From Anaerococcus porci (GTDB lineage Bacteria; Bacillota; Clostridia; Tissierellales; Peptoniphilaceae), in contig NZ_VULQ01000005.1 of the NCBI RefSeq assembly GCF_009696575.1, positions 1-64,000 on the forward strand: DNA of 64,000 nucleotides, read 5' to 3'. The notes under the pieces are model-generated. The model worked only from the letters and a program-made list of their open reading frames with translations, had not been told where the DNA came from and did no database searches. Positions 22,159 through 27,469 of this stretch are shown in pieces. Each line of letters begins with the position of its first letter. Position 1 is the stretch's first letter. The position numbers were made by a program, and so were the translations under genes.

Positions 22159-23814
22159 ATGAAAGATACAGTATATATTACAGGGCATAAAAATCCAGAT
22201 ACAGACTCTATATGCTCGGCTCTTGCCTATGCTAATTTAAAGAATAGGCTAGGAGAAACAGATGCTATACCAATAAGGCTTGGACATATAAATCAAGAAA
22301 CTCAATTTGTCCTAGATTATTTTGGAATGAAGGCACCTATATTCAAGGATTCAATGAAACTTCAAATAAAGGATATAAATTACGATAATTCTTATAATGT
22401 GGATGAATCTTTGCCAATTAGACATGCTTGGTCAATAATTCAAGAAAATAAGCTTAACTCGCTTTTTGTAGTAGATGAAAGAGAAAAACTTATAGGAGTA
22501 GCAAGTCTTTCAAATCTCACCCATTCATATATGGAAGTTTGGGATGATAAGATAATAGGAAGAACTCATACTTCTTTAGAAAATATTGCTGATGTGTTAT
22601 CAGCTAAGGTTATAGTAAATCCTGAAAATCCAAGAGAGTTTACAGGAAAGATGATGGTATTTGCCATGAATGAGAAAGATTCTCCACAAAATGATTTGAT
22701 TGGGGATGGAGATCTTGTAATCACAGGAAATAGGAGAGAAGCTCAAGAGTATTTATTAGAAAGAAATGTATCTCTTATAATCTTAACTAATGGCTCAGAT
22801 ATTAGTGAAGATTTAAAGGAAATGGCTAAGAACAATCACATAACAATAATTTCTACAGAGTATGATACATTCATGACGGCAAGGCTTCTTCCAATGTCCA
22901 TTCCTATAGCAAATGTTATGAGTACAGAAAATATTGTATATTTTACACCAGATGATACTGTAGATACTGTTAGAGAGCTTATGGGTAAAACAAGATTTAG
23001 ATCCTACCCTATCCTTGATACTAGGGGGAGAGTTTTAGGTGCAATTTCTAGATACCATCTTATAACAGATGATAAGAAAAAACTCATCCTAGTCGACCAC
23101 AATGAACGTAATCAGTCAATAGATGACATAGACTATGCTGAAATAGTAGAGATAATAGACCATCATAGGGTGGCAAATGTTGTTACAAATTCACCCCTAT
23201 TCTTTAGGGCAGAACCTGTAGGTTCAACCGCAACAATAGTTGCAAAGATGTTTTTTGAATCAGGAATTAGGCCATCAAAGGAGATTGCAGGCATTCTTTC
23301 TGCAGCTATTATCTCAGATACCCTTTTGTTTAGGTCGCCTACAACCACAGAGACAGACAAGAGAATTCTAAAAAGACTTACAAAAATAGCAGACCTTGAT
23401 GAAGAAGATTTTGCTATGAAGATGTTTAAGGCAGGTACAAGTCTCAAAAACAAGTCTCCAGAAGATTTGATAGAAGGTGATGTAAAGACCTTTACCATAG
23501 GTGAAGATAAGATTAGGGTAGGTCAGGTTATGACTATGAATCCAGAAGAGCTTGAGCCTATAAAGGAAGAATTAGAAGAGCTGATGAAAGAGAAAATTAG
23601 ATCAAAAGGAGAAAACACCTTTGTCTTGGTTCTTACAGATATATTTAATAAAAAATCTGAACTTTTAGTTGTAGGTAATTATTTATCTGATATAGAAAAT
23701 GTGTTTGGAAATAAGGTTAAAAATGGTACAATATCAGCCCCTGGAGTTCTTTCAAGAAAGAAACAAGTTATACCCAAAATTACTGAAGCAATTGTAAATA
23801 GCCATAATAATTAA
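22159..23814 (+). CDS. Family II manganese-dependent inorganic pyrophosphatase with CBS-DRTGG insert
   Basis: Hydrolyses pyrophosphate to phosphate. The 551-residue protein has the DHH phosphoesterase core split by a regulatory insert: VYITGHKNPDTDSICSALAY at the N terminus, CBS1 (about 60-120), a DRTGG domain, CBS2 (ANVMSTENIVYFTPDDTV), and then VDHNERNQ with the IIDHHRVANV (DHH) motif. The C-terminal DHHA2 domain includes SRKKQVIP. CBS-containing PPases are known to be regulated by adenine nucleotides. The ATG at 22159 follows AGAGGTG; a GTG six bases upstream is part of that site. It follows the CorC gene closely. Confidence 0.9.
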   Translation: MKDTVYITGHKNPDTDSICSALAYANLKNRLGETDAIPIRLGHINQETQFVLDYFGMKAPIFKDSMKLQIKDINYDNSYNVDESLPIRHAWSIIQENKLNSLFVVDEREKLIGVASLSNLTHSYMEVWDDKIIGRTHTSLENIADVLSAKVIVNPENPREFTGKMMVFAMNEKDSPQNDLIGDGDLVITGNRREAQEYLLERNVSLIILTNGSDISEDLKEMAKNNHITIISTEYDTFMTARLLPMSIPIANVMSTENIVYFTPDDTVDTVRELMGKTRFRSYPILDTRGRVLGAISRYHLITDDKKKLILVDHNERNQSIDDIDYAEIVEIIDHHRVANVVTNSPLFFRAEPVGSTATIVAKMFFESGIRPSKEIAGILSAAIISDTLLFRSPTTTETDKRILKRLTKIADLDEEDFAMKMFKAGTSLKNKSPEDLIEGDVKTFTIGEDKIRVGQVMTMNPEELEPIKEELEELMKEKIRSKGENTFVLVLTDIFNKKSELLVVGNYLSDIENVFGNKVKNGTISAPGVLSRKKQVIPKITEAIVNSHNN

Positions 23815-23815
23815 T

Positions 23816-23844
23816 TTTACTTTTTAGGAAAATCATGCTATAAT
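23816..23844 (+). promoter_or_regulatory. Promoter of the aromatic amino acid operon
   Basis: TTTACT (23816-23821) and TATAAT (23839-23844) are 17 bases apart, directly after the pyrophosphatase gene and 33 bases before the leader peptide start codon. Confidence 0.7.
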
Positions 23845-23877
23845 AATTTCAATTAAAACTTAGAGGAGATTAAAGTA

Positions 23878-23979
23878 ATGAAAACCATAAATTTTGCACA
23901 ATATAGCTTTTACTTTTTTTACTTTACTTTTAATAAGAGTAAGGCTATTTATCATGTGCAAAATCCAAAAACACTTTAA
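23878..23979 (+). CDS. Phe/Tyr-rich leader peptide of the aroF-aroC-pheA operon
   Basis: A 33-codon frame with a good ribosome site (AGAGGAG). It encodes six Phe and four Tyr; residues 9-18 read YSFYFFYFTF. It sits between a promoter and a strong terminator, upstream of genes for aromatic amino acid synthesis. This is the layout of ribosome-mediated attenuation, as in enterobacterial pheA and trp leaders. A hairpin of ATTTTGCAC (23891-23899) with GTGCAAAAT (23956-23964), extended by ATAGCTTTTAC with GTAAGGCTAT, encloses the aromatic codons. A ribosome stalled there would open it. The role is inferred from layout. Confidence 0.8.
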   Translation: MKTINFAQYSFYFFYFTFNKSKAIYHVQNPKTL

Positions 23980-23990
23980 GTTTTGAATTT

Positions 23991-24019
23991 AGCTTCTTGG
24001 TAGATTGCCAAGAAGCTTT
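23991..24019 (+). terminator. Attenuator terminator upstream of aroF
   Basis: AGCTTCTTGG (23991-24000) and CCAAGAAGCT (24008-24017) form a perfect 10-bp stem followed by a T-run, between the leader peptide and aroF. Released sequence around 23935-23949 (AAGAGTAAGGCTA) can pair in a bulged way with AGCTTCTT, giving a possible antiterminator. Confidence 0.8.
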
Positions 24020-24045
24020 TTTTATTTAATTTGGAGGAAAAGAAT

Positions 24046-25056
24046 ATGATTATTAAACTAAAAAATGGAGTAAAAAAAGAAAAAATAGAAGAACTAATTA
24101 AAGAAATTGAAGATATGGGGCTTAAGGTATCCACTGCAGTTGGAGAAAATACTACTATCCTTGGTCTTTTAGGAGATACATCAAAAGTATCAAAAGATGA
24201 TATGAAATCAAAAGAGGTTGTAGATGATGTTATAAGAATTCAAGAACCATACAAAAAAGCAAATAGAAAATTTCACCCAGAAGATACAATAATAAGACTA
24301 AATAATGGAACTCAAATTGGTGGAGGTACTTTTGTATATATGGCAGGTCCATGCTCTGTTGAAAGCGAAGAGCAAATTGTATCAATTGCAAAAAAAATAA
24401 AAGAATCAGGAGCTACGATACTTAGGGGTGGAGCGTTCAAACCAAGGACTAGCCCATACTCATTCCAAGGCTATGGTCCAAAAGCTATAGACTACCTAGT
24501 ATCTGCTAAAAAGGAAACAGGACTTGCCTTAGTATCTGAGATAATGGAAATAAATCAATTAAAATACTTTGATGACATAGATATCCTTCAAGTAGGAGCA
24601 AGAAATATGCAAAATTTTGACTTACTTAAGGAACTTGGGAAAACTGACAAACCTATATTACTTAAGAGAGGACTTTCAGCAACTTATGAAGAGCTTTTAA
24701 TGGCTGCTGAATATATTATGTCAAATGGAAATACCAAGGTTATTTTATGTGAAAGAGGAATAAGAACATTTGAAACAGCAACAAGAAATACCCTTGATGT
24801 AACAGCTGTACCTTTCTTACACGAAAAAACCCACCTTCCAGTAATTATTGATCCATCCCATGCGGCAGGAATAGCAAGATATGTAAGAGACTTATCCTTA
24901 TCTGCAGTTGCAGTTGGAGCAGATGGACTAATGATAGAAGTACATGAAAATCCAGCTAAGGCCTTCTCGGATGGAGCTCAATGTATCATTCCAGATGAGT
25001 TTGATATGCTATTAAAGGCAACAAAACAAATTCATGAATTAAGAAAAAGCTTATAG
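24046..25056 (+). CDS. aroF: 3-deoxy-7-phosphoheptulonate synthase (DAHP synthase, type I-beta)
   Basis: First step of the shikimate pathway: phosphoenolpyruvate plus erythrose 4-phosphate gives DAHP. The N-terminal 70 residues form a ferredoxin-like regulatory domain (IIKLKNGVKKEKIEELIKEI). The catalytic barrel follows, with MAGPCSVES, LRGGAFKPRTSPYSFQG, LKRGLSATYEELL, ILCERGIRTFE and IIDPSHAAG. This is the Thermotoga-like I-beta type that is allosterically inhibited by Tyr/Phe. The ATG at 24046 follows GGAGG; an upstream TTG is part of that site. First gene after the attenuator. Confidence 0.96.
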   Translation: MIIKLKNGVKKEKIEELIKEIEDMGLKVSTAVGENTTILGLLGDTSKVSKDDMKSKEVVDDVIRIQEPYKKANRKFHPEDTIIRLNNGTQIGGGTFVYMAGPCSVESEEQIVSIAKKIKESGATILRGGAFKPRTSPYSFQGYGPKAIDYLVSAKKETGLALVSEIMEINQLKYFDDIDILQVGARNMQNFDLLKELGKTDKPILLKRGLSATYEELLMAAEYIMSNGNTKVILCERGIRTFETATRNTLDVTAVPFLHEKTHLPVIIDPSHAAGIARYVRDLSLSAVAVGADGLMIEVHENPAKAFSDGAQCIIPDEFDMLLKATKQIHELRKSL

Positions 25057-25065
25057 GAGAAATAA

Positions 25066-26145
25066 ATGACCCAAAGCTTTGGAAAAAATTTAAAGACAAC
25101 TATATTTGGCTCAAGTCACCAATCTTTTATTGGGGTAGTAATGGATGATATAAAACCGGGCTTTGAGATAGACTATGAAAAACTTTGCACTTTTATGCAA
25201 AGAAGAGCTCCGGGAAAGTCTAAATATACTACAAAGAGAAAAGAAGTAGATAAACCTGAGTTTTTATCTGGTGTAATAGACAATAAAATTGTATCCAAGA
25301 CCATAGTAGGGATTATAAGAAATGGAGATTATCTTTCAAAAGACTATAAAAACTTAATAGATGTACCAAGGCCTTCTCATGCTGACTACACTTCCCTTAT
25401 AAAATATGGAAAAGATTTGGATATGAATGGATCAGGACCTTTTTCAGGTCGTATAACAGCTCCGCTTTGCCTTGCAGGAGGTATTGCTAAGCAAATAATT
25501 GAAAAAAAAGGTATAAAAATTCATGCTAGACTTAAAAATATAGGAGGAATAGAAGATAGGAAAATATCTCTGCTAAATCCTCCTATGGATGAGCTTGATA
25601 AAATAAAGAACAAAGAAATTGCAGTTCTTGATGAAAAAAAGGAAAAAGAGATAAGAGTCTTACTTGAAGATGTAAGGGGAAATCTTGACTCGGTTGGGGG
25701 AATCTGTCAAGTTTTTGCAACAGGAGTTCCAAAAGGTCTTGGAGATCCAAACTACGATTCTTTTGAATCAAGGATTGCCTACCTTTCTTATGGAGTTCCA
25801 GCAGTTAGGGCAGTTTCTTTTGGAGATGGCTTAGACTCTTTTAAAATGAGAGGGTCAGAACATAATGATCAATTTGAAATAATAGACGGAAAAGTAAGGA
25901 CTAAAACAAACCATGCAGGTGGTGTTGTAGGTGGAATTACAAATGGTGAGGCTGTGGTATTTGATCTTATTTTCAAGCCTACAGCATCAATATCCCTTCC
26001 TCAAAAGTCATTTTCCTTAAAAGAAAAAAAAGAAAAAGAGCTTGTAATAAAGGGACGTCATGATCCATGCCTTGCCCTAAGAACGCCACCTATAGCAGAA
26101 TCTATAATGGCCCTTACAATATTGGACTTCTTAAATGACTTATAA
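25066..26145 (+). CDS. aroC: Chorismate synthase
   Basis: Converts 5-enolpyruvylshikimate 3-phosphate to chorismate with reduced FMN. The 359 residues keep the conserved His in FGSSHQSF (His18) and in RPSHADYTS, plus GPFSGRITAPLCLAGGIA, the NLDSVGG region and the C-terminal GRHDPCLALRTPPIAE. The first signature deviates from the usual GESHG (here GSSHQ). The length fits. It lies 9 bases after aroF and overlaps pheA by 11 bases. Confidence 0.95.
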   Translation: MTQSFGKNLKTTIFGSSHQSFIGVVMDDIKPGFEIDYEKLCTFMQRRAPGKSKYTTKRKEVDKPEFLSGVIDNKIVSKTIVGIIRNGDYLSKDYKNLIDVPRPSHADYTSLIKYGKDLDMNGSGPFSGRITAPLCLAGGIAKQIIEKKGIKIHARLKNIGGIEDRKISLLNPPMDELDKIKNKEIAVLDEKKEKEIRVLLEDVRGNLDSVGGICQVFATGVPKGLGDPNYDSFESRIAYLSYGVPAVRAVSFGDGLDSFKMRGSEHNDQFEIIDGKVRTKTNHAGGVVGGITNGEAVVFDLIFKPTASISLPQKSFSLKEKKEKELVIKGRHDPCLALRTPPIAESIMALTILDFLNDL

Positions 26146-27121
26146 ATATATATATGACTTAAAAAATAACATAGACAGATTTTCTGAAGATAAGCTAAAA
26201 GAAATTGAAGATATTATAAAAGATAGGTATCAATATATACTTCTTTCAAAAGAAGATGGAGAATTTTCAAAAAAAATATATCAAAAACTTTCAAAAAATC
26301 CTTTTATTAAAAAAGGTAAAATTGCAGTAGGAGGATGTAAGGGCTCTTATGCAGATCAGGTTGCAAATATAATTTTTGAAGATAAGAAAATTTCTTATTT
26401 TAAGAGATTTTCAGAAATTCTAGATAGCATAGAAAAAGAAAAATCTCAGTATGGAATTTTACCATTAGAAAATTCATCTTATGGATCTGTTAAAGAAGTT
26501 TATAATCTTATGCTTAAGAGAAATTTTTATATTATTGGGTCATTTAAGCTAGACATAAATCATTTTTTACTTGGAAATATAGATGCAAATTTAGCTGATA
26601 TAAAAGAAGTATATTCTCATCCCCAAGCACTGGGTCAGTGTAGGGACTATATTTATGAAAGAAACTTTAAGGAAAATGAGTATTTTAATACAGCTCTTTC
26701 TGCAAAGTATGTTAAAGAATCTAATGATAAGAGTAAGGCAGCCATAGCTAGCAAATTTGCAGCAAAAGAGTATGGATTAAAAATACTTGATAAGAATATC
26801 CAAAATGAAGAAAACAACTACACTAGATTTATTATTGTAGCTAAGGATATAAAAATCTTTGAAAATTCAAACAAAATTTCCATAAGACTAAAGGCCCTAG
26901 ATAAACCGGGATCTCTTATAGAAATAGTAGAATTTTTTAAAATTTTAGGTATAAATATGACTAAACTTGAGTCAAGTCCTATACCAGGTTCAGACTTTAA
27001 ATTTATTTTTTATTTTGACTTTGATGGAAATATAAGAGAAAAGAAGGTAAGAGTACTTTTAGATATATTGAAAAAGGAAGCTGATGATTTTGAATTTATG
27101 GGAAATTATATAGAATTTTAA
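26135..27121 (+). CDS. pheA: Prephenate dehydratase with ACT domain and an unassigned N-terminal segment
   Basis: Makes phenylpyruvate for Phe synthesis. The catalytic domain (about 62-250) shows GCKGSYADQVAN, LPLENSSYGSV, SHPQALGQC and the essential NYTRFIIV. A C-terminal ACT domain (KPGSLIEIVEFF, then a LESSPIPG-type loop) should give Phe feedback control. The first 60 residues are helical and charged (LKNNIDRFSEDKLKEIEDII), placed where bifunctional P-proteins carry chorismate mutase, but they are short and lack clear AroQ active-site residues. The start overlaps aroC by 11 bases. Confidence 0.92.
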   Translation: MTYKYIYDLKNNIDRFSEDKLKEIEDIIKDRYQYILLSKEDGEFSKKIYQKLSKNPFIKKGKIAVGGCKGSYADQVANIIFEDKKISYFKRFSEILDSIEKEKSQYGILPLENSSYGSVKEVYNLMLKRNFYIIGSFKLDINHFLLGNIDANLADIKEVYSHPQALGQCRDYIYERNFKENEYFNTALSAKYVKESNDKSKAAIASKFAAKEYGLKILDKNIQNEENNYTRFIIVAKDIKIFENSNKISIRLKALDKPGSLIEIVEFFKILGINMTKLESSPIPGSDFKFIFYFDFDGNIREKKVRVLLDILKKEADDFEFMGNYIEF

Positions 27122-27165: not shown

Positions 27166-27210
27166 CATAATAACTTATAAGTTATTAGTTTTAGATTATT
27201 TTAAAACTTT

Positions 27211-27469
27211 GATCAGAAGTAAGTAAGTTTTACAATTCTTTTATAGAGAGCTTGTGTGTGGTGGAAACAAGTAAGGAACTAAGACTGAATGGATCTGAGA
27301 GTGCGAGGTGAATATAGTAGCCGAGTCGTTTCCCGCGTTATAGGGATATGATATGAAAGTTATTATGATTAGTATCAGAATAAAGATGTGCAGATTTTTT
27401 TGCATAAGTAGGATGGCACCGCGAATTTATACCATTTGCTCCTAATATAGGAGCAAGTGGTTTTTTATT
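27211..27469 (+). ncRNA. T-box riboswitch, tryptophan specific
   Basis: The leader has the stem I region with the GGTGGAA-type element, a specifier loop containing TGG (27290-27292, in CTGAATGGATC), the T-box AGGATGGCACCGCG (27410-27423) and a terminator (ACCATTTGCTCC paired with AGGAGCAAGTGGT, then TTTTTT, 27431-27466). TGGC in the T-box pairs with GCCA, fitting tRNA-Trp with discriminator G73. Uncharged tRNA-Trp would favour readthrough into trpP. Confidence 0.93.

Follow-up and report, generated by a model that had tools for sequence, protein, structure and literature searches.

A predicted Phe/Tyr leader-peptide attenuator before aroF-aroC-pheA in Anaerococcus porci, and similar leaders of one AroF subclade

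In a stretch of 64,000 nucleotides from Anaerococcus porci (positions 1 to 64,000 of contig NZ_VULQ01000005.1, here called the window; all features lie on its forward strand), the operon aroF-aroC-pheA is preceded by what is very probably a ribosome-mediated transcription attenuator that senses the charging of tRNA-Phe and, less so, of tRNA-Tyr. Classical ribosome-mediated attenuation, as the original prediction had proposed, is the mechanism best supported by the anatomy of the leader, by its mutually exclusive helices and by its conservation in relatives.

The leader, its operon and the metabolic setting

The features expected of a Phe/Tyr leader-peptide attenuator were confirmed between a sigma-A promoter and aroF. 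The promoter is of the form TTTACT-17-TATAAT with a TG-extended -10 (23816-23844) and is kept in the close Anaerococcus relatives, as is the Shine-Dalgarno (SD) sequence AGGAG (23864-23868) of the leader peptide. The leader ORF (MKTINFAQYSFYFFYFTFNKSKAIYHVQNPKTL, 23878-23979) has 33 codons, of which 10 are Phe/Tyr (6 Phe, 4 Tyr) and none is Trp, and residues 9-18 form a regulatory codon cluster, YSFYFFYFTF (23902-23931), with the predicted eight aromatic residues out of ten. Around these codons lies the 1:2 anti-antiterminator hairpin (23891-23964), starting with TTTTGCAC and ending with GTGCAAAA, whose arms were located at 23891-23905 and 23950-23964 and flank the aromatic codons as had been described. 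The 3:4 intrinsic terminator (23991-24023) follows with 12 pairs, one of them G-U, a 3-nt loop and a U-tract, and it contains the 10 perfect pairs of the prediction. No antiterminator had been named before; we place it at 23943-23954 (strand 2, GGCUAUUUAUCA) and 23998-24009 (strand 3, UGGUAGAUUGCC), the latter made up of the 5' arm of the terminator, its loop and the start of its 3' arm, with the leader stop codon at 23977 between the two strands. A further, outer stem (23853-23865/23974-23986) begins near the transcription start and encloses the entire leader ORF together with some of its SD; relatives have a similar outer stem with another 5' partner.

All three genes of the proposed operon follow the leader, namely aroF, encoding a DAHP synthase of the NF006421 type (24046-25056; SD GGAGG at 24033-24037), aroC, encoding chorismate synthase (25066-26145), and pheA, encoding prephenate dehydratase (26135-27121). 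The start of aroF is the ATG at 24046, a small correction to the earlier reading. The neighbouring T-box-controlled trpP was likewise recovered, with a T-box leader (RF00230, 102 bits, putative UGG (Trp) specifier) at 27200-27446 in front of the gene of a tryptophan transporter (PF17099, 27506-28015). Another contig of the same genome (C4) carries tyrA-aroB-aroA, a gene for a fused chorismate mutase/shikimate dehydrogenase/shikimate kinase (aroE/aroK) and aroQ (L184:5597-10549, reverse strand), immediately downstream of the gene for a ribosome hibernation factor, and before tyrA-aroB-aroA we found neither a second leader nor a T-box, nor any Rfam match. Neither TrpE nor a chorismate-binding enzyme of any other kind was detected in the genome, and by this search Phe and Tyr are therefore the only products for which chorismate is used. 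Such a metabolism matches a leader that has codons for Phe and Tyr but none for Trp, as well as a Trp transporter behind a putative Trp T-box.

Conservation in Anaerococcus and the alternative helices

Among 31 Anaerococcus genomes this AroF is present in only 10 (counting G044 as the genome of L022 and G046 as that of L017, by coordinates), and all ten have the leader. The AroF proteins of A. senegalensis, A. hydrogenalis, A. vaginalis, A. jeddahensis and others are 87-89% identical to that of the window. In every one of the ten, an SD is followed by an aromatic-rich ORF of about 30 codons, a 1:2 hairpin, a 2:3 antiterminator and a 3:4 terminator, so that the Phe/Tyr codons and the terminator, whose conservation had been proposed as a check, are both kept. 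The close group has the cluster SFYFFNFTF or near variants of it, with SFYF.(N/Y)F largely conserved. Two more distant species have the Tyr-rich clusters AYFYYYFTS and AYYYYLTS (YFYYYF and YYYY), which at the nucleotide level show little similarity although the design is unchanged. The operon of these two species is aroF-tyrA-aroB..., that of the window's group aroF-aroC-pheA; within Anaerococcus the operon with pheA therefore has the Phe-rich leader and the one with tyrA the Tyr-rich leader. No AroF was matched at 1e-20 in 17 of the 31 genomes, and a different AroF is present in several others; aromatic biosynthesis is therefore patchy in the genus. In two genomes that still have the aroF operon and its leader (G014:C10, G046:C1), aroA is interrupted by stops or split, which suggests pathway decay or assembly errors.

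Folding supports mutually exclusive 1:2, 2:3 and 3:4 helices. For the entire leader the folding energy is -48.2 kcal/mol (z = -6.85), a value equalled by none of 200 shuffles. When the RNA up to 24004 was folded in full, 1:2 formed, 2:3 did not and strand 3 stayed unpaired. When the RNA upstream of 23935 was masked, which mimics a ribosome stalled in the cluster, 2:3 formed at -16.7 kcal/mol (RNA to 24010), as the antiterminator GGCUAUUUAUCA/UGGUAGAUUGCC plus inner helices. In the window, 2:3 (-16.7) is a little less stable than the finished terminator (-18.2), and antitermination must therefore be kinetic, with 2:3 winning by forming first. For the window alone the antiterminator is marginal, its 2:3 only just beating shuffles (z -1.2 to -1.8), and its 1:2 hairpin stands at z -3.0; in all ten Anaerococcus leaders the matching antiterminator is the best masked fold (z -1.2 to -3.8).

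Over nine aligned Anaerococcus rows, 98% of cells are paired in 3:4, 86.5% in 2:3 and 84.8% in 1:2, against 25-66%, 27-53% and 37-54% in slid controls. Covariation across these rows is weak, with one pair changed on both sides between two Anaerococcus groups in 2:3 and one in 3:4. Thus, of the Rfam and covariance check that had been suggested, pairing well above the controls speaks for the helices, the covariation is thin, and Rfam returned no match in the leader. The same helices are supported over 41 mutually dissimilar leaders, where 2:3 (the terminator 5' arm against the stretch after the aromatic codons) has a mean z of -1.25 (Wilcoxon p 6e-7), the leader's own terminator arm outpairs swapped arms in 37 of 41 cases (p 2e-9), and 1:2 has a mean z of -2.28 (p 1.5e-11). 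Here 2:3 was scored by folding the masked RNA, in place of a simple duplex scoring that was dropped for picking spurious duplexes in AT-rich Anaerococcus leaders.

Aromatic leaders before aroF outside the genus

A fixed criterion, an SD with an aromatic-cluster ORF and a terminator before aroF, was applied to 150 aroF loci. Requiring five aromatics in 12 codons, it picked out 59 of them; raising the cut to six left 46, and to seven 30. The loci were chosen by similarity to the window's AroF, and these fractions are therefore not prevalences for the phylum. Reverse complements gave 0 of 150 at each cut. The same criterion was then applied to a follow-up sample of 27 loci, taken from 398 genomes of the phylum, and 15 were positive; a few of these, among them a Veillonella-like one and L211, resemble leaders found earlier. 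A single subclade of the AroF tree (81 rows, support 100) holds 58 of the 59 leaders of the first set, and the sister group of 29 holds the remaining one. The top-scoring NF006421 AroF loci are of the sister type and have the leader in only 1 of 69 cases, which showed that the leader is associated with one AroF subclade. With the terminator requirement dropped, 61 of 81 loci were positive in the subclade versus 2.8 expected from shuffles, and 5 of 69 in the sister set versus 3.6 expected.

Most of the 80 AroF loci closest to that of the window (L015-L094) have an F/Y/W-rich ORF and then a terminator, including those of Veillonella (TAKQYFYWFFIQRTGKELF), Acetobacterium (NAYYYINQSYWFFSFGYF), Trichococcus (QTNFYFTYFTFWGFYFSAGYF) and Ruminococcus-like metagenome-assembled genomes (MAGs; SARFFEYFTFFSCFYFWYG). 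Single loci labelled Coriobacteriaceae and Synergistota (MAGs) also have the leader with its terminator. An aromatic-rich ORF (FYFYYGYWWF) was also seen in two MAGs of Victivallales (L040, L055), where no terminator was detected. The view that such a leader is unusual in Firmicutes thus has to be given up, given the 59 positive loci, the leaders before most aroF genes of the subclade and a precedent in Acholeplasma (PMC8632094).

These comparisons also bear on what else the leader might be. That a T-box, a riboswitch or a protein-bound RNA switch governs the terminator, with the ORF incidental, is very unlikely: RNA switches too typically use terminators with alternative folds, and some genomes do have T-boxes close to an aroF of the sister type, but neither at gathering nor at relaxed thresholds did Rfam find a riboswitch or T-box in the leader (23790-24060), the relaxed search returning only chance matches to PyrR and PyrG leaders far below gathering. 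In addition, aromatic-rich ORFs recur before the same gene even though their nucleotide sequences are unrelated, a pattern not expected of an RNA aptamer, and F/Y/W clusters occur at 46 of 150 loci against 0 or 1 for other residue sets. The sister-type T-boxes, near aroF in 8 of 40 loci (L142, L148, L157, L158, L113, L120, L123 and L125), make it seem that the two AroF types differ in their mode of control.

Still less probable is that the leader ORF acts mainly through translational coupling or reinitiation on aroF instead of transcription termination. Reinitiation from leader to gene has been proposed for many bacteria (PMC4833913), but here a strong terminator stands between the leader stop and aroF, whose SD and start lie 53 and 66 nt past that stop, far from the published reinitiation peak of 10-16 nt (PMC4833913). 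Least probable, and already contradicted, is a constitutive terminator of the upstream gene next to a chance ORF: the region is AT-rich and TTT and TAT codons are frequent in such DNA, but the arrangement is present in relatives and none of 450 dinucleotide-shuffled upstream regions and none of 150 reverse complements gave a match at the cut (six aromatics) at which 46 of 150 real loci did, the low fold z and the conserved promoter, SD, cluster and three helices argue against chance, and GC-richer sequences have the arrangement too.

The codon content of the leaders that we read as attenuators follows the operon behind them. Where the operon contains tyrA, the proportion Y/(Y+F) of the cluster is 0.55 (n=36), compared with 0.26 where it contains pheA (n=22; p 2e-7); after de-duplication the values are 0.54 (27) and 0.24 (8), with p 0.001. 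Only four phylogenetically independent tyrA/Tyr pairs are available, of which about three agree and none opposes, too few for significance, and the association is therefore suggestive on the tree. The leader ORF has a dN/dS of 0.28-0.42 in Acetobacterium, Veillonella, Trichococcus and one MAG group, and of 0.77 in a looser group. In the close Anaerococcus leaders it is about 1.3 (1.26) with few synonymous changes, so that coding selection is not told apart there from RNA structure. We consider it likely that aromatic leader-peptide attenuators form a widespread, unannotated family, which has moved along with a single AroF subclade across Clostridia, Negativicutes, part of the Bacilli and a small number of other phyla, with peptide and RNA rewritten almost freely and with Phe, Tyr and Trp codons tuned to tyrA or pheA and to the auxotrophies of the host.

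Proposed mechanism, known systems and implications

From the parts, their conservation, the mutual exclusivity of the helices and the match between codons and operon, we infer the following course of stalling and termination, and with it the direction in which the operon would respond. RNA polymerase would begin near 23851 and the ribosome at 23878. A shortage of charged Phe- or Tyr-tRNA would stall the ribosome at codons 9-18, so that it covers strand 1, leaving strand 2 to pair with strand 3 before the terminator is complete, and transcription would go on. When Phe and Tyr are plentiful, the ribosome would get to the stop codon, where either 1:2 reforms or the ribosome itself blocks 2:3, so that the terminator forms and transcription would end near 24023. 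If the leader is not translated at all, 1:2 and 3:4 would both form and the operon would be off.

The enterobacterial attenuators of pheA (pheL) and trp (trpL) have regulatory codons in a short leader peptide, an alternative antiterminator and terminator, and a biosynthetic operon downstream. The Anaerococcus leader, likened to them by design, has the same layout, but it mixes Phe with Tyr codons, its target starts with aroF, and its stop codon comes after strand 2. Closer in its target gene is the motif uORFC-13-1, known from 24 examples before aroF in Acholeplasma and unassigned environmental sequences only, for which attenuation was proposed by its authors (RNA Biol 2021, PMC8632094). The Anaerococcus leader fits the general description of that motif (PMC8632094), with which it was compared by description and without an Rfam match: both precede aroF and have a promoter, a ribosome-binding site, an upstream ORF with Phe codon(s) and a terminator directly behind. 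However, uORFC-13-1 is described with at least one Phe codon, and in the Anaerococcus leader the Phe/Tyr codons number ten and a 1:2/2:3/3:4 scheme is defined. Among Gram-positive bacteria, attenuation of transcription by a leader peptide has genetic support in the ilv-leu operon of Staphylococcus aureus, where the attenuator peptide is Leu-rich (PMC5794164); it differs in its Leu/Ile codons and its ilvD operon. Classical His attenuators are predicted for the Bacillus cereus group, Peptostreptococcaceae and Erysipelotrichales (PMC2965389, PMC9413887), and they differ in having His codons and his or hisS genes. The Anaerococcus leader is as such a good example, as far as its predicted design goes, of a known kind of attenuator and not a rarity. 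In the literature searched we found no description of aroF leaders of Clostridia, Negativicutes or Anaerococcus; the 2010 survey of Lopatovskaya et al. lies outside that search, and priority is uncertain.

Textbook accounts of aromatic control in Gram-positives stress T-boxes and TRAP. The leaders described here point to leader-peptide attenuation of the first gene of the aromatic pathway as common in these bacteria. They also make the coupling of transcription and translation testable in Clostridia and Negativicutes, given that in B. subtilis RNA polymerase is reported to outrun the ribosome (PMC9226507), which, if true here, would weaken the attenuation mechanism. A wide family matched to its operons is, we think, a more interesting result than a single leader. 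Should the predictions for this family hold, one could tell from the leader sequence alone to which aromatic amino acids an operon responds, and DNA might therefore suffice to read the regulatory logic of uncultured bacteria and their auxotrophies.
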